From positions 62,001 to 126,000 of the forward strand of contig NZ_CP011477.1 of the NCBI RefSeq assembly GCF_001010805.1: a DNA stretch of 64,000 bases, given 5' to 3'. Below the pieces are notes generated by a model, which saw only the letters and a program-made list of their open reading frames with translations, searched no databases and was not told the DNA's origin. A program made the translations under genes and the position numbers. The DNA is from Spongiibacter sp. IMCC21906. Its GTDB lineage: Bacteria; Pseudomonadota; Gammaproteobacteria; Pseudomonadales; Spongiibacteraceae. Each line of letters opens with the position of its first letter. Within the stretch, counting starts at the first letter, position 1. Positions 3,645 to 32,500 of the stretch are shown piece by piece.

Positions 3645-4655
3645 ACAAAATACCGAGACCTTCTGGATACCGGCTCAAAGCCTGCCCCGGCCTTCGAGCC
3701 GGGGGCCTGCATGACAATAGCATGGTGTGTTCTCCTGTCACCCCAGACGCGCAGCGAGCCCCTCCGCCTGCTCTATTCCCCTTTATTAAACGTTCGTCAT
3801 CCCGGACGCGATAGCGAGCCGGGATCCAGCTACGGTACAAGCCGCTACATCGAAGTGGATTCTTACACAGAGGTCTTATGGATACCGGCTCGGGGGCCGG
3901 TATGACGATAGCGTGGTGTGTTGCCCTGTCATCCCGGACGCGCAGCGAGCCGGGATCCAGCTACGGCACAAGCCACTACATCGGAGTGAATTTTACACCG
4001 AGGCTTTCTGGATACCGGCTCGAGGGCCGGTATGACGATAACGTGGTTGTTGTCCCGTCATCCCGGACGCGCAGCGAACCGGGATCCAGCTACGGCACAA
4101 GCCGCCACATCGAAGTGAATTCTTACACCGAGGCATTCTGGATACCGGCTCGGGGCCGGTATGACTCAGTCTTTTTGGCTAGACCACCAATACATTACAC
4201 TCGTGAGATTCAAGCTAAAACGTACCCAGGCCTACGAGCCCGAGACTAGCATGACTAAACTACCTGAAACCTCGTCATCCCGGACGCGATAGCGAGCCGG
4301 GATCCAGCTACGGCACAAGCCACTACATCGAAGTGAATTCTTACGCCGAGGTCTTCTGGATACCGGCTCGGAGGCCGGTATGACGATAGCGTGGTGTGGT
4401 GTATTGTCATCCCGGACGCGATAGCGAGCCGGGATCCAGCTACGATACAAGCCACTACATCGAAGTGAATTCTTACGCCGAGGTCTTCTGGATACCGGCT
4501 CAAAGCCTGCCCCGGCCTTCGAGCCGGGGGCTGGTATGACGATGGTGTGGTGTGGAGTGTTGTCCCGGACACGTAGCGAGCCCCCTCCGCCTGCTCTATT
4601 CCCCTTTATTAAACGCTCGTCATCCCGGACGCGCAGCGAGCCGGGATCCAGCGCA
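3645..4655. repeat. palindromic repeat block R1 (REP/BIME-like)
   Basis: This thousand-base gap holds no credible gene. It consists of about six copies of a composite unit: a palindrome of the form TCATCCCGG-AGCGAGCCGGGATCCAG, a linker of about 50 bp (ACGGCACAAGCC and CATCGAAGTGAATTC are conserved), then a second palindrome GGATACCGGCTC-GCCGGTATGAC in the opposite sense. The first palindrome begins at 3797, 3929, 4058, 4275, 4407 and 4620, so the basic period is 129-132 bp with two longer steps. Several second palindromes have an inner expansion reading GCCTGCCCCGGCC. The translated frames here are by-products of the repeats. The family resembles REP/BIME elements; no transposase is present in the window. 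Confidence 0.85.
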
Positions 4656-4696: not shown

Positions 4697-6745
4697 TTAA
4701 AAGTTATAACGCATACCTACCCGTAACGTTCTGGGTTCTGTTGCGCGACTCATGGTGCAGTCCACCGCGGCACAATCCACATCATCTGAGCTGCTGCCCG
4801 CATCCAGCCCTTCGACATAAGCCGGGTAGTAATAGCTGATATCTTTACCATCGTTATCCAGCAGATTAATCATTTCGGCGTACAGGGTGATTTTCTGCCA
4901 ATGATAGGCACCGCGAATATTGACGGTGGTTAAGGGTTTGGAGCGATGGCCATTGTCTGCGGTGAGTGCATAGGCACCTAAATAACGAAGTCTGGCACTG
5001 ACTTCCCACGCGGCACGGGTCACTGAAATACCAAGCTGGGCGGCTTCTTCAATGGCGTTCTCGACGTATTTCCCCTCGGCGCTATTATTATAACGAGCAT
5101 CGCTATGGGCATACACCGCGTCGATACCCACACCGTCAAAGGGCTGCCAGAATAACGTTAACTCATAACCATCCCGCTCAGATCCCCCCTTGGGTTCCAC
5201 TGAATTGGAATCACCAACAAAAATTAGCTCACTGTCCTGATCTAACCACCAATAACTGGCGGTAAGCTGTACATCACCAATATTGGCTCGGCCACCAAAC
5301 TCATGCCCCGTTCCTTCAGACAAACCGGGTACCCTATCAGCCTTGTTTACCACTCCTCTAGCATCGTTAGAATGAAAGCCTTTTCCCCAGTTTCCATACC
5401 ATTCCAGCCATTCATTAGCGGCGTAGGCCAAACCCAATTTTGGTGAAATCTGGGAGTCACGCTCTTCACCATCAAAGGCACCGCTATTATTTGCCGTCGC
5501 ATCAAAATAGTAATAATCACCACGAAGACCGATCAATACCCGCAACTGCTCATTGGCATGCCACGCTAAATCTACATAGCTGCCGATGGCGCTTTCCTTA
5601 ATATCGTTACTGCTGATTTCCGCTACAAACTGTCCCTTGTTATGCTGGTTTAAGCCAACCGGTGAAATATCGTCGTAACGAAAATCACCACCCACCGTCA
5701 ACTTAATATGATGACCGTCTACAATCATTTTATTGGCGTAGCCACCCAACGTCTGGCGCTTATCAAACTGCTGAATCTGAAAATCGTAGGTGGGATTGGA
5801 CTCCATCTTCCAATCATAATACTGAGCGTAAAATCCGGCCTGCCAATCATCACCATGCAGCTTTGAACCCAAAATCCAGCGGCTTGTTTGTCCTTTCGCA
5901 CTATCGTCCAGCGCGCAATATTCATCCTCACAAACCGCCGAGCCAATGGCCCGCTCGGGAATTTGCTCGGTGGGTTGCCATTTAGCATCGTAAACAGACA
6001 GCGTGAATTCAGCCTGCCCAAAGCGGGTATCAATAAGGTATTTACTCCACAGTGAAACATGCTCCAAGACCTCTTCCTGCTCCCAAGGCCCATCGTAGGT
6101 TTTAGACTCGCCAATCACACTCAGCTCGCCAGCGCCCACCGAAAGGCTGTGCCCTGCAGCAAGCCGTGCCCAACCGTATTCACCTAGTTCCGCCGAGATA
6201 AAGCTGTGCTCTAACCGATCAATGGTTTCAATCGATGATGAACCCGCCAAAGAGAAATCTCCCAAGGCAGCGTAGTAAGGTCCCTTACGGTAATTCACCT
6301 GCTTGACGGTTTCCGGGATCAGGCCATTAACATCAAGATATCCTTGACCGTGACCATGGGAGCGCAGATTCCACGGCACAGCATCCACACTCACGGTGTA
6401 ATCGGTACCATGGTCCAGGTTAAATCCCCGCAGAAAATATTGATTGGCTTTGCCACTTCCTGAATGCTGTACGGCAACCATACCGGGCATGGCTTCCAGC
6501 AATTCGGCTACTTTTAACATGGGTCTAACCAATAAATCTGCGCCGCCCACCGAGCCTTCGCTGGCCGAGCCAGCAATACCCACCAGATCGGTGGCGCGAC
6601 CAAACACCGTCATTTCTTCTAGCGATTTATCGCTGCGATGACTTTCAGCATGTGCCATAGAGATGCCGATCGTGGCCAGCAAGACGGCGATATTGATTCT
6701 TATCCCAAGGCGGCAATAGCGCGATTGAGCAGTATTGTTTTCCAT
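4697..6745 (-). CDS. TonB-dependent receptor under cobalamin riboswitch control
   Basis: About 682 aa from the ATG at 6745. The N terminus is a signal peptide (GIRINIAVLLATIGISMAHA), followed by a plug domain with YFLRGFNLDHGTDYTV and a C-terminal beta-barrel ending in RVGMRYNF, the usual C-terminal Phe of outer-membrane barrels. The predicted role is energy-dependent uptake across the outer membrane. It is not a close BtuB match, but a cobalamin riboswitch lies directly upstream (about 6880-7045) and the CobN-like operon is adjacent, so a corrinoid, cobalt or related metal chelate is the likely substrate. The frame extends upstream to 6910, but that part is riboswitch sequence. Repeat block R1 begins 40 bp after the stop. 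Confidence 0.85.
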   Translation of the reverse strand: MENNTAQSRYCRLGIRINIAVLLATIGISMAHAESHRSDKSLEEMTVFGRATDLVGIAGSASEGSVGGADLLVRPMLKVAELLEAMPGMVAVQHSGSGKANQYFLRGFNLDHGTDYTVSVDAVPWNLRSHGHGQGYLDVNGLIPETVKQVNYRKGPYYAALGDFSLAGSSSIETIDRLEHSFISAELGEYGWARLAAGHSLSVGAGELSVIGESKTYDGPWEQEEVLEHVSLWSKYLIDTRFGQAEFTLSVYDAKWQPTEQIPERAIGSAVCEDEYCALDDSAKGQTSRWILGSKLHGDDWQAGFYAQYYDWKMESNPTYDFQIQQFDKRQTLGGYANKMIVDGHHIKLTVGGDFRYDDISPVGLNQHNKGQFVAEISSNDIKESAIGSYVDLAWHANEQLRVLIGLRGDYYYFDATANNSGAFDGEERDSQISPKLGLAYAANEWLEWYGNWGKGFHSNDARGVVNKADRVPGLSEGTGHEFGGRANIGDVQLTASYWWLDQDSELIFVGDSNSVEPKGGSERDGYELTLFWQPFDGVGIDAVYAHSDARYNNSAEGKYVENAIEEAAQLGISVTRAAWEVSARLRYLGAYALTADNGHRSKPLTTVNIRGAYHWQKITLYAEMINLLDNDGKDISYYYPAYVEGLDAGSSSDDVDCAAVDCTMSRATEPRTLRVGMRYNF

Positions 6746-6879
6746 CGTTTTATCCCAGTGTCGCCGGAGCCAAGGAAGCTGGCGCGGCAAGGTTGCAAAA
6801 AGAAGGCACAGCACAATGACGCCACTGGGAAAGTGACGAGATCGTTGCAAGAAGCCCTCCGCTTCATCCAAGAAAATAC

Positions 6880-7045
6880 TGCTCAGGCCGGTTTCGGGCT
6901 TAGGGACCACAATCCCTTCACCGTTGCGGGGGCAGCGTCGGTATTACTTGCAGCAGCCATCAAGCCACAGCGCACCGAACTTCCCGTTTACCCTGATCCA
7001 GCCACGTTTGGCAGCGTGGCGATCAGGCACCTGATCAGCGTTGAA
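6880..7045 (-). promoter_or_regulatory. cobalamin riboswitch upstream of the TonB receptor
   Basis: Read on the minus strand, the conserved blocks of the Cbl aptamer occur in order: AGGTGCC (7032-7026), GGGAAGTTCGGTGCG, then GCTGCCCCCGCAACGG and AGCCCGAAACCGGCCTGAGCA (ending about 6890). The region from about 6880 down to the ATG at 6745 would be the expression platform. The class normally represses downstream genes when adenosylcobalamin is plentiful, so the receptor should be made under B12 shortage. This riboswitch is separate from the one in front of cobN. Confidence 0.9.
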
Positions 7046-7147
7046 ACAATGCAGATACGGTTTGCGTATCCGCGATAATATTAAGGTGATTTTTCAGACA
7101 ATCTTGCTGAAAAAAACACTAAAAAATGTGGCTTAACGACGTGGTGA

Positions 7148-7453
7148 TTACTCCCCTATTAACACCAACTTTCCGGTTTTAGGGTCGCGATACACTTTGC
7201 CCAGCGCTTCATAGCCCGAGCCATCGTCAACATGACGTTGCAGTGATTCTGGTGCCTCACTCAACTCTTTACCCAAGGAAACATTCTGCGGTGTTTTTTC
7301 GGTTGAGAAATGCTTTTGCAAATCGGGGCTAAAGGAAACCAGCGCGGCAATAAGCCCACAGGCAAACACCAGAATAATATCGACCAGATTGGCCATAGGG
7401 CCGAGGGGGTCTTCATCGGTATCTAAAAAGGCACTGCGCCGCCACTTATCCAT
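7148..7453 (-). CDS. DUF2149 membrane protein (HmuV-like)
   Basis: About 101 aa from the ATG at 7453, which overlaps the stop of the ExbB-like gene by 8 bases; a longer frame upstream is out of keeping with this coupling. It has one membrane helix (about residues 20-40, LVDIILVFACGLIAALVSF), a variable middle and a conserved tail KVYRDPKTGKLVLIGE typical of DUF2149. As I recall, DUF2149 proteins accompany CobN-like chelatases and ExbB-type proteins in heme or corrinoid uptake loci. The topology resembles ExbD (one N-terminal helix and a periplasmic domain), so an energy-coupling role with the neighbouring ExbB-like protein is plausible. It is third in the operon cobN-exbB-like-DUF2149. Confidence 0.8.
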   Translation of the reverse strand: MDKWRRSAFLDTDEDPLGPMANLVDIILVFACGLIAALVSFSPDLQKHFSTEKTPQNVSLGKELSEAPESLQRHVDDGSGYEALGKVYRDPKTGKLVLIGE

Positions 7454-7901
7454 TGCTATGACCTTTATACTGCAGCTCTGACAAAGCTTGGTCATACCAG
7501 CGACGCCGCAAGCGCCCCAGTACAAAACCAATCATCCCCGCCAACAAGCCAATCACCGTGGTATCAAAAGCCACCGTCATTGCCGTGGTTAACACCCGCA
7601 ACTCACCTTCACCCAGTGCCGCCAAACCGGGGCCGAGGGGAATCAAGGTGCCCATCAGCCCCAGCATGGGGGCCAGCCGGGTGATAAAATCTGCGCGTTC
7701 AATACGACGCTTACCGGCCTGAAGCAAGGCATGTTCACCGCCACGGCGGCTCAGGCGCGCAATCCCGCCCCAGCGTTCGCCCAGACTGATGCCCACTTCG
7801 TACAAGGCCAAGGCAACAAAAAACAGCAGCGCCCACACCACCGGTTGCAACAGCAGCGACGTGATTTGATGCATAAGCCCCAGCGAAATGCCTGAAAACA
7901 T
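7446..7901 (-). CDS. MotA/TolQ/ExbB-type proton channel protein
   Basis: About 151 aa from the ATG at 7901; an in-frame TTG at 7916 is less likely. Three membrane segments are visible: near residues 10-35 (LLQPVVWALLFFVALALYEV), and a pair in the second half around FITRLAPMLGLMGTLIPLGPG and AFDTTVIGLLAGMIGFVLG. The second half is the conserved ExbB/TolQ core with its Pro-Gly and Thr residues. The family forms inner-membrane proton channels that power work across the periplasm. It lies 21 bp downstream of the CobN-like gene and overlaps the DUF2149 gene. The neighbours suggest it energises the CobN-like protein or its receptor, which is inference. Confidence 0.85.
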   Translation of the reverse strand: MFSGISLGLMHQITSLLLQPVVWALLFFVALALYEVGISLGERWGGIARLSRRGGEHALLQAGKRRIERADFITRLAPMLGLMGTLIPLGPGLAALGEGELRVLTTAMTVAFDTTVIGLLAGMIGFVLGRLRRRWYDQALSELQYKGHSNG

Positions 7902-7922
7902 CGTAACAACCCCCAATCAAAT

Positions 7923-10900
7923 TTAGTTGTGGCTACGGCCACGCACAGCACCCATCGCAATTAACAACAAGCCTGCCGCCAAGATCCACAGCCAATACCA
8001 CTGAGTGTCATCAGAAGCCGTCTCTGACGAAGCATGTGTAGAAGATTCTGAGGGCGGCGGCGATGTGTTAGCATCGACTTGCACCTCCTGAATATGGCTT
8101 GGAACCGGTTTGTCGGCGATGCTTTGCTGACGACGACTCTCTGCCAGCAGCTTTTCCAAGGCGGCGGCCTTCTCTGCCGATAACTGAGTTTTTACTAAGT
8201 TATACATGGGATGATTGGCATGAGTATGACCACTGCCGGGATTACCGTGCTCGATAATATTATCGGCAAACGCCTCCGCCAGTTGTTTAACCGTCGCCTC
8301 ATCAGCCTGCCAAAACCCCTTGTCGACAGCTACCAACATCACCGCCAGAATATTGCTTTGCACATAGCGGTTATGGCCATCGCTTAAAAAGTCATCCAGG
8401 CCCAGATCAAGCTTGTCGTCAACGTAGACCGCTTTCACTTCTTGCCATACCCAGTCATTAATAATCTCCGGGCTGGTCACCTGCCAGCCCCAAAGATACT
8501 CAATAAATTCACTGCCCATGGTACGGGCGCCTGAATAGCCTTCATTCATCAGCGGCTTAATCCACTGCGGGTTAAAAAACCGCCCCCGCAATTCTGACAA
8601 TATCGCGGTATGCAGCGCATCAATGCGCAAGTCATTGCCGTCGGCATGATTGATCACTGCACTGGCCGGCGCCTTGCCCCGCACGGTTTCTACAGCAAGA
8701 TTAAAGCCCCCTAAATAATCAAAGGCATCGTTGTTATCGACCAAGCCATAGAGATTACTGGCTCGCCCCAAATAGGTTTGGGAAATACCCGCCAGCTGCT
8801 GGCGAAACAGCGCTGGAGCGGCCTGACCATCAAGACCAACCCCGTAAGCGTGACCCATACGTTTGCTGAATACCTCGGCCAGTTCGCTGCGATCTTTCCA
8901 CGCCCCGGAGCGCTCTACCAAGCGATTAATACCGGCACCATAAGAACCGGGAGCAATGCCAAACACCCGCACACTGGCCTGACGACCCAAGGTCTCGGCA
9001 TCAATATCACCTTGCTCTGCTAATATTTTTCGCGCCTGATTCACCCAGTTATTTGCCACCTGATTTTTATCCAGCGGCTCATTGCCGCCCTGTTGCCATT
9101 CCCCCAAGGGTTTCAAGGCCGCCCGTAGCGCGGTGGTTAAGGCAGGAAACTGCTTGATTATCCGGTCCCGGCTGGCATCCAATGCCAACAGACTGGCCTT
9201 GTCTAGCAACAACATATGCTCGCCGTAAAGGTCTCGGAATAAGCCCGATGTGGTAAAAACCACATCAAACCGTTTGGGCTGACTGGCGCTTAATGGCAGT
9301 CGCTGTAAACCTTTTATAATGCCGCGGCTATTCCAAATTGGCTTCACCCCAAGCAGCTTCATACCAAAGGCAATCATCGCGCCTTCATCTCTCACGGCGT
9401 CAGAGGCCCAAAGAATCACACCTTGTTTATTACCGGCAATATCCTCGGTATGGGCAGCAACCCCCGACTCACCAGACAACACTTTATTAGCCAACGTCTC
9501 ACCCGTCGTAAAGGCTAACTGGGTAGGCAGCAAACTGCCGTCCAAAGCATAAAAATTGCGACCGGTGGGCAGCGCCGCTGGGGTACGAATAGGATCATTG
9601 CCTTTACCCGGCGCGACAAAGCCACCGTTTAAGCCATTTAGCAAAGCATCCATCTCGGCCTTGGGAGAGGCCTTTAATTGCTGCCGCCATAAATCAGATG
9701 GCGCATTCTTATTGCCATCAATCATGGAGTTCACCATGGTATCCAAGGCAGCTTCCGTCCAATTCTGACCAAACACATGCAACCCCAGCGGCATAAAGTC
9801 CTCTTGAATATTGGTCAGATAATGCCCCACTTCGTGGAGCAAAAATTCTTCATCAATATCATCAAAACCTACGCCCCGAACTTGCAGCTCTTCATCCATA
9901 CTGGCGATCAATTCATCTCGCAGCTCAAGCTCGTCGATGGTTTCTCTGAGTCGCTGCACAGCGCGGCTGCGGGTTTGGGAATCTGTCGCGGCCTCAGCAC
10001 TTTCAATCAACTGTCGCAACTGCAATAAATCGTCATAGAGCTCAGTGATCGCCAAGGGCGGTGTCAGGTGATCCACCATTACCGCCAAACCTCGGCGCTT
10101 GGCCTGAATACCTTCACCGACACCATCGACAATATAGGGATAGATGCCGGGAATATCCCCGGCGATAATGCTGGGATAATCGGCCTCGCCAAGCCCGGTG
10201 CTGCGCTTGGGTAAAAACTCATAGGTAGAATGTCGCCCCACATGCACCATGGCGTCGGCGCTAAACACATCTTGCAGATAGTGATAAAAGCCTAAATATT
10301 GATGAGGGGGCGGAAATGACATATTGGCATGAAGCAGCTCTTCATTAATCTCCCACCCCCGAGGCGGCTGCGGCCCTAAAAACACATTGCCAAATTGCAC
10401 ACCCGGAATCAGCTGCCTGCCCTGCCAGACCATCACCTTGCCCGGCGCGTCGCCCCAGCCACGAATGCCCTCAATCTTCATTTTGACAATGGCATCAACC
10501 AAAGCTTGGCTGCGCTGCCACTCCAGGTCTTGCCCCGCCGTCAGCTTTTGCAACACATCCAGATATTCTTCTTCTAACTGGGCCAGCAAATCCAAGGCTC
10601 TTGCCCGTCCCTTATGCCGCAAACCATCCATTGCATGATGAAGATCAGTGATAGTGCTGTGCATGCGATCTTCAAGAAACTGCGCCCGCGCCTGACGCGC
10701 CGACGCAGAAGCCAGGCTGGCAATAGCCGACACCTGAGACTGCATCAAGGTCTGCAATGCGCCCAGAGGCCCCGCCACCATCTCGGCCTGGACACTGGCC
10801 GGTAAGGTTTCAAACCATTGTTGATACTGCGTGGCACTCAAACCGGCCACCTTGCCAGCCATCTCAGCTAAGGCTTTGGCATCTTCCGGCAGGTTAACCC

Positions 10901-12395
10901 CTTGGGCTTGCAAAATATCCAGCAACTCCTCAGTGTCGCCGGGAATCTCACCGGTGGTGTAGCCCGCCGCTTTCAGTGACTGCAATATTGTTAATAAGCT
11001 CTCTGGCACATTGAGGTTGTCCGCCCCAATATTGTGGCGGCCGGGAGGATGGTTGTAATACACAATAGCCACCCGCTTGTCGGCATTGGCCTTAACCTGC
11101 AGGTCTAACCAACGCTGTAATCGCCGGGCCTGACGCTGCACTTCATGCGCAAGAGGCTTGCTTCTAAAAAGACTGGCACCGGTAAGTGGGTCTTGTTGTT
11201 GAGGTTCTGCCAGTGCCAGCAGCTGGGCTTGGCTCACACCCTGCAATTCAGGCATGGCCAAGCGGTAGTGGATGGAGTCTCGGGGAAGCCCCTGATCAGA
11301 AAGTTGCCAATCTGCCTCGCTCCATTCCCCCACCCGCAGCCCTTTTAACACCGGCACATTGAGTTTTTTTAATTCAGCCAGAACGGCTTCGCGACCATCG
11401 CCGCCACCAATCACAAAATCCTGCAGTGCCAATACCGCAGTGGGAGTGGCGTTTTGACTAAACGCGTTAATCGTCTTTACCGCCTCCACACTGGGTTGCC
11501 CCCAGGACGCCAATACCGAAACACATTGCCAGTCCTGAGCCTGACAAAATTGCTGGTGCAGTGCCCACTCTCCCGCCAGATCACCGGTATCGTGATCGAG
11601 AATCCACAAGGTAGGCTGCAGGGGTGTTAAGGCACGGCTGAGCGCATCAACATCTAACCACCTTGCCGTACCTTGATGATGCAGGGCAAAGCGCAACGGC
11701 GACACCACAACCAGCGGCGACTGTTGACGGTTGCCATTGGCGAGCATAGCCAGCAAAGCACGGGCATTTTCCACTGAACGATTTAACCAGTAGGCGCGAG
11801 CCTGCAGCCAATCATGATATTTGGGGTGCTGCTTTTGGAATGTTTCAAGTGCAGAGGCATCCAATAAGGCGGTCTTCTCCGAGACAATATCGTCCGGCAA
11901 ACCGTGGCCAAAAATCGCGCCTTGCCGGCCCTGTTGCAAAGCCAGTAAACGGCGATCACTGTGTATCACCATGCGCAGTTTTTGATTGGCAAGCGGCATA
12001 CTCAGTAAACGATCGACGGCATCACCAAACACCGCCACCAAGAGCAGGGCATCCTTATTTGCCAGCAGACTGCTAAGCTGTTGATCATCCATCTCCGCAA
12101 GCTGGCTCACCGTGCGGATGTCAATCTGGGCGTCACTGCCCATATCCTTTAACTGATGGGCTCCCGCCACCAAATAGGGAGCAGACCGGTCGGATACAAT
12201 CACCGCCACACTTTGACTGGCCGCCCACAGCGGCGCATTAAACAACAGGCCGCAGCCCAGCATAAGCAAAGCCATAACATGGCGTAGCTGAAATATCACA
12301 AGCAATCCCCTGCGCCAGAACCTCTGCGCTGATAGCGGTTGATTGAAATAGAAAGGGGACGGCAATTCAGAAACTGACTGAAAGCTCAGTGGCAC
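7923..12395 (-). CDS. cobN: CobN/HmuS-like chelatase with signal peptide and C-terminal membrane anchor
   Basis: A 1490-aa CobN-family protein, first gene of an operon behind a cobalamin riboswitch. The family blocks are clear: HVGRHSTYEFLPKRSTGLGE, GDIPGIYPYIVDGVGEG followed by QAKRRGLAVMVDHLTPPL, and HEVGHYLTNIQEDFMPLGLH. Unlike cytoplasmic cobaltochelatase CobN, it has a hydrophobic signal-like stretch near residues 40-60 ending in LFNAPLWAA and a C-terminal helix (WYWLWILAAGLLLIAMGAV) before an Arg-rich end. This predicts a periplasmic, membrane-tethered enzyme. No cobS or cobT is in the window. The start at 12395 is a GTG; internal starts nearer the signal sequence are possible. The partners (ExbB-like, DUF2149, TonB receptor) match HmuS-type loci, so insertion or removal of metal from an imported tetrapyrrole is more likely than B12 synthesis. 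The symbol marks the family only. Confidence 0.85.
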   Translation of the reverse strand: MPLSFQSVSELPSPFYFNQPLSAQRFWRRGLLVIFQLRHVMALLMLGCGLLFNAPLWAASQSVAVIVSDRSAPYLVAGAHQLKDMGSDAQIDIRTVSQLAEMDDQQLSSLLANKDALLLVAVFGDAVDRLLSMPLANQKLRMVIHSDRRLLALQQGRQGAIFGHGLPDDIVSEKTALLDASALETFQKQHPKYHDWLQARAYWLNRSVENARALLAMLANGNRQQSPLVVVSPLRFALHHQGTARWLDVDALSRALTPLQPTLWILDHDTGDLAGEWALHQQFCQAQDWQCVSVLASWGQPSVEAVKTINAFSQNATPTAVLALQDFVIGGGDGREAVLAELKKLNVPVLKGLRVGEWSEADWQLSDQGLPRDSIHYRLAMPELQGVSQAQLLALAEPQQQDPLTGASLFRSKPLAHEVQRQARRLQRWLDLQVKANADKRVAIVYYNHPPGRHNIGADNLNVPESLLTILQSLKAAGYTTGEIPGDTEELLDILQAQGVNLPEDAKALAEMAGKVAGLSATQYQQWFETLPASVQAEMVAGPLGALQTLMQSQVSAIASLASASARQARAQFLEDRMHSTITDLHHAMDGLRHKGRARALDLLAQLEEEYLDVLQKLTAGQDLEWQRSQALVDAIVKMKIEGIRGWGDAPGKVMVWQGRQLIPGVQFGNVFLGPQPPRGWEINEELLHANMSFPPPHQYLGFYHYLQDVFSADAMVHVGRHSTYEFLPKRSTGLGEADYPSIIAGDIPGIYPYIVDGVGEGIQAKRRGLAVMVDHLTPPLAITELYDDLLQLRQLIESAEAATDSQTRSRAVQRLRETIDELELRDELIASMDEELQVRGVGFDDIDEEFLLHEVGHYLTNIQEDFMPLGLHVFGQNWTEAALDTMVNSMIDGNKNAPSDLWRQQLKASPKAEMDALLNGLNGGFVAPGKGNDPIRTPAALPTGRNFYALDGSLLPTQLAFTTGETLANKVLSGESGVAAHTEDIAGNKQGVILWASDAVRDEGAMIAFGMKLLGVKPIWNSRGIIKGLQRLPLSASQPKRFDVVFTTSGLFRDLYGEHMLLLDKASLLALDASRDRIIKQFPALTTALRAALKPLGEWQQGGNEPLDKNQVANNWVNQARKILAEQGDIDAETLGRQASVRVFGIAPGSYGAGINRLVERSGAWKDRSELAEVFSKRMGHAYGVGLDGQAAPALFRQQLAGISQTYLGRASNLYGLVDNNDAFDYLGGFNLAVETVRGKAPASAVINHADGNDLRIDALHTAILSELRGRFFNPQWIKPLMNEGYSGARTMGSEFIEYLWGWQVTSPEIINDWVWQEVKAVYVDDKLDLGLDDFLSDGHNRYVQSNILAVMLVAVDKGFWQADEATVKQLAEAFADNIIEHGNPGSGHTHANHPMYNLVKTQLSAEKAAALEKLLAESRRQQSIADKPVPSHIQEVQVDANTSPPPSESSTHASSETASDDTQWYWLWILAAGLLLIAMGAVRGRSHN

Positions 12396-12414
12396 CCCGC
12401 CACGATCTATTTCC

Positions 12415-12660
12415 TTTGCTTAGGCCGGTCTCCGGACTCACAGATTGCTCAAAGTGCATGAGCACAGCTTCTTCGCCTTCCCACGCCTGATTCACTGGCG
12501 CAGTGGCTGCCAACACCGGGAGGTGTGGCGGAAAAAGATAATCTGCTTACCGTTGCGGGGGCAGTACAGGCTTAGCGTTACCACACGTAGGTAATACGCA
12601 CCTGTTTCCCGTTTAACCCTAGACAATGGACTTGCCGTCGGGCACCTGAAAGCGTGGACA
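12415..12660 (-). promoter_or_regulatory. cobalamin riboswitch upstream of the cobN-like operon
   Basis: On the minus strand the aptamer blocks appear in order: GGTGCCCGACGG (from 12646), AAACGGGAAACAGGTGCG, then CTGCCCCCGCAACGGTAAG, and AGTCCGGAGACCGGCCTAAG ending at about 12418. A long variable stem lies between the last two. An AAAGGAAATAG stretch just downstream may be the ribosome-binding site under control. This predicts repression of the CobN-like operon by cobalamin. Confidence 0.92.
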
Positions 12661-12718
12661 AGGATACGCACTTTAGAAATTAGGTCAAGAAATCACCTCG
12701 GCAGGCACTCTGTATTTT

Positions 12719-31367: not shown

Positions 31368-31793
31368 ATGCAAACTAAAGCGAGTTGTCTGTGCGGATCC
31401 GTTAAGTTCGAGATTGAGCTATCAAACCCAGAGCCAGAAATTGCTGCATGTCATTGTAGTATGTGCCGAAAGTGGCTTGGTGGGCCAATGTTGGCAATGG
31501 ATAGTGGCATGCTAAAGAACGTGTCGGGTGAATCTTTTATTTCTCGATATTCATCTTCGGAGTGGGCAAAGAGGGGGTTCTGTAAGAAGTGTGGTACTAA
31601 TCTGTTTTACTACTTAATACCCGCAGAACAATATCATTTTCCTGTAGGTTTATTCGATAGCGAAATACAATTTAAATTCAGTCATCAGATTTTTATTGAC
31701 GAAAAGCCAGATTTCTATACTTTCGCTAATGAGACTCAAAATATGACTGGTGCCGAGGTGTTTGCCCACTTTAAAAATGAGAACAACACATAA
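31368..31793 (+). CDS. cassette gene 5: GFA-family (glutathione-dependent formaldehyde-activating-like) protein
   Basis: 141 aa, ATG at 31368. The zinc-binding cysteines of the GFA fold are all present: CLCGSVKFEIE at the N terminus, ACHCSMCRKWLGGPML, and GFCKKCGTNLFYYL. The family is named for formaldehyde activation by glutathione, but most members have unknown substrates. It is the last gene of the array. Its stop codon is directly followed by the 3' end of a group IIC intron, so the expected attC site after it is interrupted. A fragment of a second GFA gene lies about 800 bp downstream. Confidence 0.85.
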   Translation: MQTKASCLCGSVKFEIELSNPEPEIAACHCSMCRKWLGGPMLAMDSGMLKNVSGESFISRYSSSEWAKRGFCKKCGTNLFYYLIPAEQYHFPVGLFDSEIQFKFSHQIFIDEKPDFYTFANETQNMTGAEVFAHFKNENNT

Positions 31794-32500
31794 TCGGGTA
31801 GCCGAGGGCCTCTAACCCTCAGCCCCCACAACACCCTGCATGCAGATCCGCACAGGGCGTTTCACTAAGAATGGTGAAGCTTAATCCAACCATCACGCAA
31901 TTCGTAAAGTCCCTGAGATTTTAAATAGACATTGGATAAAGCCTGATTAATCCCCGGTGTTTTAGAGCTGCGCCATGGGCCTTTGCTGGTAATACCACAC
32001 GCAACAGCAGCCTGTACGTGGACGCCTCGACTCATCAGGTTTCTTACTTTGGTTCGTGGCTTTCGCCACTGCCGCCAGTAAGCCATCCGTACTCTGCGCC
32101 GAATCCAATGATCTAGATCGACGCACAGTTGATAACAGTTGGCGATACCAAAATAGTTAATCCAGCCTCGTATAAATTGGCTGGTTTTAAAGAGCTGATA
32201 TTTCATCGACTCTCCCCAGTTACGATTCGTTAACAGGCGAATCCGCTGCTTGAATTTCAGCAGTGTTTTCGCGTGCCATTGAATACGGCCAGCCTTGAAG
32301 GTAAACCCCAAGAACTTACTCTCACTGGTTTTAACGACGCGACTTTTATCGGTATTTACGACCAGCTTCAAGCGGTTTTGCAGGTACTGGCTGATACTGT
32401 GCAGCACGCGTTCACCAGCTCACTGACTTCTTACTATTATCGTAATAGTCGTCAGCGTAGGAGAAGGCTTGGGGGCAGGTCTGTGATTTATGATTTTTAA
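31794..32500 (-). mobile_element. degenerate group IIC (attC-type) intron
   Basis: On the minus strand the reverse-transcriptase remnant is followed by a 3' segment with GTGCGGATCTGCATGCAG, TGTTGTGGGGGCTGAGGG and CTCGGCTACCCGAT, which match my memory of the 3' ends of group IIC introns. The 3' boundary abuts the GFA cassette stop codon, the place where an attC site would start. Group IIC-attC introns are known to insert into attC sites in this opposite orientation. The 5' half, including the first RT domains and the 5' splice site, is missing, so the element cannot splice or move on its own. Confidence 0.7.
31865..32475 (-). pseudogene. group II intron reverse transcriptase/maturase remnant
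   Basis: An intact frame covers residues VLHSISQYLQNRLKLVVNTD through the maturase/DNA-binding end (IRGWINYFGIANCY, RIRRRVRMAYWRQWRKPRTK, SKGPWRSSKTPGINQALSN). The upstream part is shifted: the catalytic YADD motif is at 32459-32448 in another frame that ends at a TGA at 32414-32412, and before it no RT homology can be seen. So there is a frameshift between YADD and the GERVLH block plus a 5' truncation. The enzyme is inactive. The C-terminal domain is typical of the bacterial class C introns found at integron attC sites. Confidence 0.8.

Follow-up and report, generated by a model that had tools for sequence, protein, structure and literature searches.

Canonical CobN proteins have ChlID as one of their partners. 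CobN likewise works with the ATP-driven CobST complex, as described in PMC7689651. Another member of the family, HmuS (BtuS2), takes iron out of haem (PMC12583661); in the hmuYRSTUV operons of Bacteroidota this exported protein, with membrane segments at both its N- and C-terminus, is accompanied by an ExbB-like protein (HmuU), a DUF2149 protein (HmuV, likened to ExbD in a statement of PMC10100974) and a TonB receptor. BtuS is presented in PMC6460266, citing Rodionov et al. 2003 for the class, as a third CobN type predicted to serve metalloporphyrin salvage, and PMC10100974 describes BtuS1-type hmu-like operons of Bacteroides fragilis that stand behind a cobalamin riboswitch and for which its authors guess a role in cobalamin metabolism. 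In Pseudomonas aeruginosa, the Zur-regulated operon PA1921-PA1925 combines a TonB receptor, a cobN-like gene and genes annotated as ExbD (PMC4542158, PMC8531726). Here we analyze a further cobN-like gene, which lies with an exbB-like gene, a DUF2149 gene and a TonB receptor gene in a 64,000-nucleotide stretch ("the window") of the genome of Spongiibacter sp. IMCC21906 (contig NZ_CP011477.1, positions 62,001 to 126,000).

The locus resembles the hmu operons in all of the parts just listed, but it is under B12 rather than iron control, its chelatase has aspartates in place of His254 and His1209 of HmuS, and it belongs to a separate clade. With the B. fragilis BtuS1 operons, compared by description only, it shares the hmu-like make-up and the cobalamin riboswitch; those operons, however, are found in Bacteroidota, which do not appear among the best 80 of 92 matching loci retrieved here. 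The P. aeruginosa operon, compared by description and not by sequence, also joins a TonB receptor to a cobN-like gene but is under zinc control. With canonical CobN the window protein has in common the PF02514 domain, the corrin context, the residue Asp1220 and, in 13 of the 80 loci, a place between CobB and CobO/BtuR; the window type differs in being predicted to be exported and membrane-anchored, and its flanks hold ExbB and DUF2149 genes instead of ATPase partners or CobW.

The genes make up a genuine, coherent system that varies on the exported BtuS/HmuS theme and is tied to B12 biosynthesis and salvage. We put at roughly 55% the probability that the group encodes an extracytoplasmic (periplasmic) cobaltochelatase, which inserts cobalt into a metal-free corrin. 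B12 shortage, sensed by the riboswitches, would switch on the receptor and chelatase units; the TonB receptor would carry cobalt into the periplasm, where the exported chelatase, anchored by its C-terminal helix beside the ExbB-like/DUF2149 proton-channel pair, would put Co(II) into a metal-free corrin, presumably of the hydrogenobyrinic type. Most carriers would salvage this corrin from outside, from other microbes, and the cobalt-loaded product would enter through BtuFCD, to be finished by CobB, CobO/BtuR, CobQ and later enzymes. Spongiibacter itself makes the ring by the late-cobalt pathway, and there the chelatase would be the cobalt step. A proton motor would substitute for the ATP-driven CobST or ChlID motor; no ATP is available in the periplasm.

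Layout of the locus and predicted topology of its proteins

The window carries two minus-strand units, one composed of the cobN-like, exbB-like and DUF2149 genes and the other of the receptor gene, with a cobalamin riboswitch ahead of each (Table 1). Both riboswitches score above the RF00174 gathering score of 31.5, far beyond chance. This arrangement had been recognized in an initial annotation made from the sequence alone; its gene content also stands as given there, save that the receptor gene lies outside the interval assigned to the system, whose limit at 6745 is the likely receptor start. The same annotation had proposed a membrane system with an ExbB-like/DUF2149 pair, which is now supported, as is an HmuS-like architecture, and had taken B12 rather than iron control to point to a cobalt or corrinoid role, with which the riboswitches and the late-B12 neighbors described below agree.

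Table 1. Features of the cobN-like locus, in window coordinates
Feature	Position	Strand	Evidence
Cobalamin riboswitch, 5' of the cobN-like unit	12406..12664	-	Rfam RF00174, 87.3 bits, E 3.6e-20
CobN-like chelatase, predicted exported	7923..12395	-	Pfam PF02514, 825.5 bits; signal peptide and C-terminal transmembrane helix with RGR tail, both predicted
ExbB/TolQ-like proton-channel subunit	7446..7916	-	PF01618, 34.6 bits
DUF2149 protein, HmuV-like, possibly an ExbD-like partner	7148..~7453	-	PF09919, 40.9 bits
Cobalamin riboswitch, 5' of the TonB receptor	6869..7049	-	RF00174, 64.4 bits, E 1.3e-13
TonB-dependent receptor, predicted Co/Ni (chelate) receptor	4697..~6745	-	PF00593 and PF07715 (barrel, plug)

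Topology was predicted from hydrophobicity (mean Kyte-Doolittle value over 18 residues) and by reading the sequence. At its N-terminus the CobN-like protein has an apparent signal peptide (…LRHVMALLMLGCGLLFNAPLWAASQ), and at its C-terminus an apparent membrane helix with RGRSHN after it; by the positive-inside rule, this would place the body of the protein, ~1,400 residues, in the periplasm. The start codon is uncertain: GTG at 12395 is the listed one, and in-frame GTG at 12299 and ATG at 12275 are among the options closer to the signal peptide. An N-terminal hydrophobic segment is found in 72 of the 74 rows that could be anchored (8 of 82 rows were unscorable at this end); the exceptions, L073 and L113, lack one at the anchor that was used. 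At the C-terminus (6 of 82 rows unscorable), the 59 rows with motor genes reach values of at least 1.04 and the 17 rows without them values of at most 0.05, with no overlap among the 76 scorable rows; a cut-off of 1.6, set beforehand, placed 8 motor-bearing loci on the side without a transmembrane segment (counts of 51/0/8/17). All 17 motor-less scored rows belong to Marinobacter, one plasmid among them, and a single co-loss event can account for the rows that lack both motor and helix. The C-terminal helix likely serves as the docking point for the motor.

The ExbB homology of the small protein encoded next to the chelatase is sound, as judged by its PF01618 match. Its residues T90 and T120, invariant in the alignment of relatives, fall in the columns of T148 and T181 of Escherichia coli ExbB (hhalign probability 36%). 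The DUF2149 protein has one predicted transmembrane helix with an invariant Asp25 (NLVDIILVFACGL; Asp in 12 of 12 aligned rows). Its C-terminal motif, which reads VYRDPKTGK in the window, is conserved, and the protein matches HmuV with a probability of 94.9%. It is possibly ExbD-like: the arguments for this are the single helix with its Asp and what has been published on HmuV. Asp25 is aligned with D25 of ExbD in an ExbD/TolR profile match of 16 columns with a probability of 3.8%, and a low-confidence structure model (pLDDT 65.7, pTM 0.25) has a helix at residues 18-41; with such a match and model, a full ExbD fold for DUF2149 is unsupported. The pair probably energises the chelatase, by the proton motive force, in place of CobST or ChlID.

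The TonB receptor stands behind a cobalamin riboswitch as BtuB does, but it scores 25.4 bits on the BtuB model TIGR01779 (cut-off 599.7), and the genome has a separate BtuB elsewhere, which reaches 526.7 bits (itself below the cut-off) and sits in a BtuB-BtuR-BtuFCD-BluB operon of its own. Receptor relatives occur in 58 plasmid records, six of which were read for neighbors: a NixA-type Ni/Co transporter is the next gene in three, followed in two of those three by cobW, cobN and cobG; nikR lies just upstream in one; and two have no telling neighbor. Receptor homologues also adjoin the CbiX clusters of Zhongshania (L114, L116), CobB in the genomes G166 and G295, and motor genes in G302 and G392. 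At the G302 locus (L168), cobN points away from the motor genes and the Co-type receptor, and a riboswitch core lies in between. By these comparisons the window receptor resembles Co/Ni receptors, not BtuB, and its substrate would be cobalt; such a receptor, controlled by B12, would go naturally with a periplasmic cobaltochelatase. The import of a corrinoid or metal tetrapyrrole, which had initially been proposed for the system, is not upheld for the receptor, which is most like Co/Ni receptors and unlike those for corrinoids or haem. The intergenic region that separates the receptor gene from its neighbor holds an array of repeated modules (window 3653-4652), made up of direct-repeat families of 27-149 nt in 2-8 copies, which gives spurious-looking open reading frames.

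Relatives, gene neighborhoods and the B12 pathway

Relatives were sought in a collection with one genome per species, using a profile of the window protein and the plasmid CobN of Marinobacter sp. M3C (46% identical). Locus counts cover the best 80 of 92 matching stretches, with flanks of up to 10 kb on each side, in which genes were called by phmmer at no less than 60 bits (at least 40 for four short or divergent families). By their titles the 80 loci come from Proteobacteria (mostly Gammaproteobacteria), Campylobacterota, Nitrospirota, Nitrospinota, Myxococcota and Binatota. Both motor genes are found in the flanks of 61 loci; the other 19 comprise 17 from Marinobacter and two on short contigs (L106, L113). 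Late-B12 genes flank 52 loci (CobB 41, BtuR 41, CobQ 29) and a corrin-ring gene just one, while CobW, CbtA, ChlI-like AAA and VWA genes were seen in the flanks of none of the 80. In the 13 loci mentioned above, CobB lies directly upstream of CobN, and downstream BtuR comes first among the recognised genes other than the motor genes; some late-B12 operons run cobB–cobN–exbB–DUF2149–btuR. Twelve loci have the order BtuB, CobN, then BtuF and CobB, which follows the route from the outer membrane through the periplasm and the inner membrane to the cytoplasm. Rfam found a riboswitch ahead of the gene or operon in all six relatives submitted, and a 12-base riboswitch core lies at most 4 kb upstream in 49 of the 80 loci and anywhere in the stretch in 59. 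A Marinobacter plasmid (NZ_CP092285.1, L029) carries a late-B12 operon with a signal-bearing CobN between cobB and cobO, and methylmalonyl-CoA mutase genes as well.

A tree of 53 proteins, from which BtuS1 and PA1923 were left out and in which the rows outside the clade are mostly from one order and long branches meet, recovered the window clade (25 rows), the HmuS relatives (4), canonical CobN (7) and BchH (4) with an SH-aLRT of 100 each, and grouped 13 other ExbB-linked CobNs at 73. One branch sets every exported, ExbB-linked CobN apart from the remaining proteins; its SH-aLRT, 92, falls short of 95. An AU test made after the tree had been seen weakly rejects a union of the window clade with canonical CobN (p = 0.040). 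The initial annotation had suggested such a tree for deciding between HmuS and CobN; as far as these sequences tell, the protein is neither, and sits in a clade of its own on the side of the exported ExbB-linked CobNs. The 13 other proteins (L138-L148, L156, L157) are exported-looking, linked to ExbB and DUF2149, and come from the window's order; they have TonB-receptor-like neighbors, and no riboswitch core was seen in their stretches. HmuS-type genes with HmuU and HmuV relatives also occur in this order, outside Bacteroidota (L149, L150, L155).

Ring synthesis was scored by CobH/CbiC (PF02570) and CobB by NF002204 above its cut-off. The ring marker is present in only 4 of the 43 carrier genomes searched, which are of unstated completeness, and absent from the other 39. 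On that count we dropped a first idea, in which this CobN would simply carry out the cobalt step of de novo synthesis in every genome that has it. In a sample of 390 genomes of the order, which partly overlaps with the 43 carriers, the clade profile is bimodal, with 39 genomes (Spongiibacter included) at 1992-2253 bits and 102 other genomes with CobN-family matches at 255 bits or below. Ten of these 39 carriers make the ring. Among the 301 ring-less genomes, CobB is present in 21 of 29 carriers vs 25 of 272 non-carriers (odds ratio 26, Fisher p 1.3e-13, uncorrected for kinship), and the 21 CobB-positive carriers span 8 families. CobB and CobQ are unnecessary for the salvage of cobinamide or cobalamin and are required to process cobyrinic or hydrogenobyrinic acid. 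CobB, CobN, CobO and CobQ without ring synthesis are exactly the steps that come after hydrogenobyrinic acid. As for the ring-less carriers without CobB, CbiB and CobD lie beside the system in G252 and G331, a CbiZ relative in G109, and CobQ, BtuR and BtuFCD in G145; in four further ones little or nothing was recognised beside it.

Three of the ten ring makers (Spongiibacter and its congeners G166 and G295) have CobG and no second CobN match, CbiX having been looked for in the latter two only in the stretches read. Six (G066, G334, G351, G421, G302, G392) have CbiX- and CbiG-like genes in their clusters, that is, an early cobalt pathway; these calls were made by Pfam for L114 and L115 and by phmmer for L116 and L120-L122, where L114, L116 and L115 are the places of G066, G351 and G421. 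The tenth, G216, also has a canonical CobN-CobW-ChlI cluster. Outside the order, Thioalkalivibrio ALJ24 (L117) combines CobG with a protein of the clade. Spongiibacter and the Zhongshania genomes of L034 and L095 carry the same genus label.

The Spongiibacter genome (3.48 Mb, 2 contigs, listed as 100% complete) has five cobalamin riboswitches, three of them outside the window. One precedes cbiD, an ABC-2 transporter pair, cobH, cobI, cobJ, cobL and cobM, with cobK and cobG on the opposite strand; another precedes cobB-cbiZ; and the third precedes btuB-btuR-btuF-btuC-btuD-bluB, with cobQ next to this operon. Spongiibacter thus has the late-cobalt (aerobic, CobG) pathway and, besides, an ordinary B12 uptake system. 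The only gene of its genome that PF02514 matches is the cobN-like gene of the window. CobS and CobT had both been noted as absent: for CobT (PF11775) this extends to the whole genome, with no match, while CobS, being a generic AAA protein, was given no search of its own. There is no CbiX (PF01903) match either, CbiK lying outside that search. Four matches came from PF01078, one to a ComM-like gene (314 bits) and three weak; no ChlI or ChlD partner was recognised among these. One weak match (C1:1356473), ~11 kb from the btuB riboswitch, was considered as ChlID and rejected, as its frame reads as a PAS/sigma-54 type regulator. In 10 of 10 control genomes with canonical CobN, a weak ChlI-like hit lies by the cob genes (beside CobB in G174, within ~10 kb of CobH in the other nine), whereas the same search gave none by the cob genes of G166, G295 or Thioalkalivibrio (G031). 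The initial annotation had held that grouping with canonical CobN, together with cobST and a complete aerobic pathway in the genome, would make the protein an ordinary cobaltochelatase; on this the outcome is mixed, with the aerobic pathway present, no CobT found and the protein placed among exported ExbB-linked CobNs. Elsewhere in the window, a group II intron domain is found at 31793-31862 on the minus strand (RF00029, 47.6 bits).

Weighing cobalt insertion against its alternatives

Several observations weigh against a motor-driven, cobalt-inserting chelatase. We know of no biochemistry for the window clade, and HmuS, the closest studied relative with the same layout, removes metal. Late-B12 genes are missing from the flanks of 28 of the 80 loci and CobB from 8 of the 29 ring-less carriers, and the association between CobN and CobB carries the kinship caveat given above. 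The motor is not indispensable, because Marinobacter (five carriers, G026-G029 and G041) and three carriers of one family (G136, G253, G384, whose CobNs are equally short) keep the cobN gene with no DUF2149 match; in G402, another genus of the latter family, DUF2149, an ExbB gene and the C-terminal helix are all present. One DUF2149 gene, in G145, was picked up by phmmer but not by PF09919, and the Marinobacter absence holds at that sensitivity only. In the six CbiX/CbiG carriers and in G216, the clade protein is unneeded for de novo synthesis. Ring makers, moreover, would need to export a corrin made in the cytosol. The ABC-2 pair inside the cob operon, between cbiD and cobH (C1:711256-712976, L015:6257-7977), could, at a guess, be such an exporter. 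Among 25 clusters compared, it occurs in the cob operon only in Spongiibacter and Thioalkalivibrio ALJ24, and neither G166 nor G295 has it near CobH, CobB or CobN. The two pairs are 54% and 61% identical to each other and 45-48% identical to E. coli YadGH, which is mild support; a regular role in delivering corrin to the periplasm was rejected, given the absence from G166 and G295.

A periplasmic dechelatase with HmuS-like chemistry, stripping cobalt from imported corrinoids or cobalt porphyrins and feeding it to de novo B12 synthesis, appears unlikely. It would suit the architecture and operon partners, which are those of HmuS, and Spongiibacter itself, which makes the ring and could use the cobalt. 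The essential His538 of HmuS is also kept, as H722, but this histidine is superfamily-wide and hence not diagnostic. Insertion fits better than removal because the 39 carriers without a ring marker have no obvious use for freed cobalt, and removal is further disfavored because destroying a corrinoid would be a loss of the very thing that B12 shortage calls for; from the initial proposal that the system inserts or removes a metal, we would therefore keep insertion. The operon order with CobB and BtuR, and the three aerobic producers in which this CobN is the sole match found, also argue against a dechelatase, as do the residues: the haem-site ligand His254 of HmuS is Asp326 in 25 of 25 clade rows (His in 4 of 4 HmuS rows), and His1209 of the active cleft is Asp1223 in 25 of 25, an Asp that 2 of 7 canonical and 6 of 13 other ExbB-linked rows have there as well. 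Asp1220 of the clade recurs in all 7 canonical CobNs and 3 of the 13 other rows but not in any row of BchH or HmuS; the clade also has Cys284 and Cys291, each in 23 of its 25 rows. A haem role like that of HmuS was set aside on residues and regulation. No HmuT relative was found in the first 30 kb of the window, a search that did not include HmuY.

Much the same, or slightly lower, odds attach to a motor-driven corrinoid handler without chelatase activity, in which the CobN fold would bind a periplasmic corrinoid and the proton motor would load or unload it between BtuB and BtuF. The BtuB-CobN-BtuF order of 12 loci is consistent with this, and class I chelatase head and neck domains are described as resembling periplasmic binding proteins (PMC12583661). 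However, H698, H722, E726 and E761 never vary within the clade and hardly vary in any group compared, the protein replaces canonical CobN in aerobic producers, and the link to CobB would be unneeded by a mere cobalamin transporter. Improbable, too, is metal editing, the removal of wrong metals (Zn, Ni) from salvaged corrinoids and their replacement by Co: class I relatives run in both directions (HmuS removes, CobN inserts) and the context is one of salvage, but specific sequence evidence is lacking. Least probable is an ordinary cytoplasmic CobN with a hydrophobic N-terminus and overlooked CobST or ChlID partners, since the aerobic pathway of the genome, which would suit it, is outweighed by the clade-wide N-terminal signal and C-terminal helix, a score under the cut-off of all nine NCBIfam CobN/BchH models listed, the gap in the profile scores, the missing CobT and the ChlI-like hits in every control genome.

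A possible nutritional type

A wider claim may be made, which we offer tentatively and at somewhat less than even odds: a proton-driven extracytoplasmic cobaltochelatase would define an unrecognised nutritional type, in which bacteria unable to synthesize the ring take up metal-free corrins, such as hydrogenobyrinic acid, that other organisms leak, load them with cobalt in the periplasm, import them and finish them, with a few ring makers using the same enzyme for their cobalt step. Metal-free corrinoids do exist: PMC7693184 mentions hydrogenobalamin from a Chromatium strain fed dimethylbenzimidazole, which gave B12 upon addition of Co. In the open literature we found no description of a periplasmic CobN of the B12 pathway, of ExbB/DUF2149 as its motor, or of metal-free corrin salvage; a prior description in subscription papers, Rodionov 2003 included, is possible.

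A 2018 survey of 11,000 species (PMC6461909) reports cobaltochelatase annotations in bacteria without most corrin genes, for which it suggested annotation overlap; CobB, too, is recorded there in some non-producers. Salvage of metal-free corrins offers a possible function for such cobaltochelatase annotations in non-producers. The system would also explain how cobalt is inserted in some late-pathway B12 makers in which neither CobST nor ChlID is detected, and a B12-linked exported CobN with a proton-channel pair provides a direct system for asking how the periplasmic relatives of HmuS are powered. If periplasmic insertion is true, then a few ring makers could equip B12 with cobalt without ever admitting the free ion to the cytoplasm.

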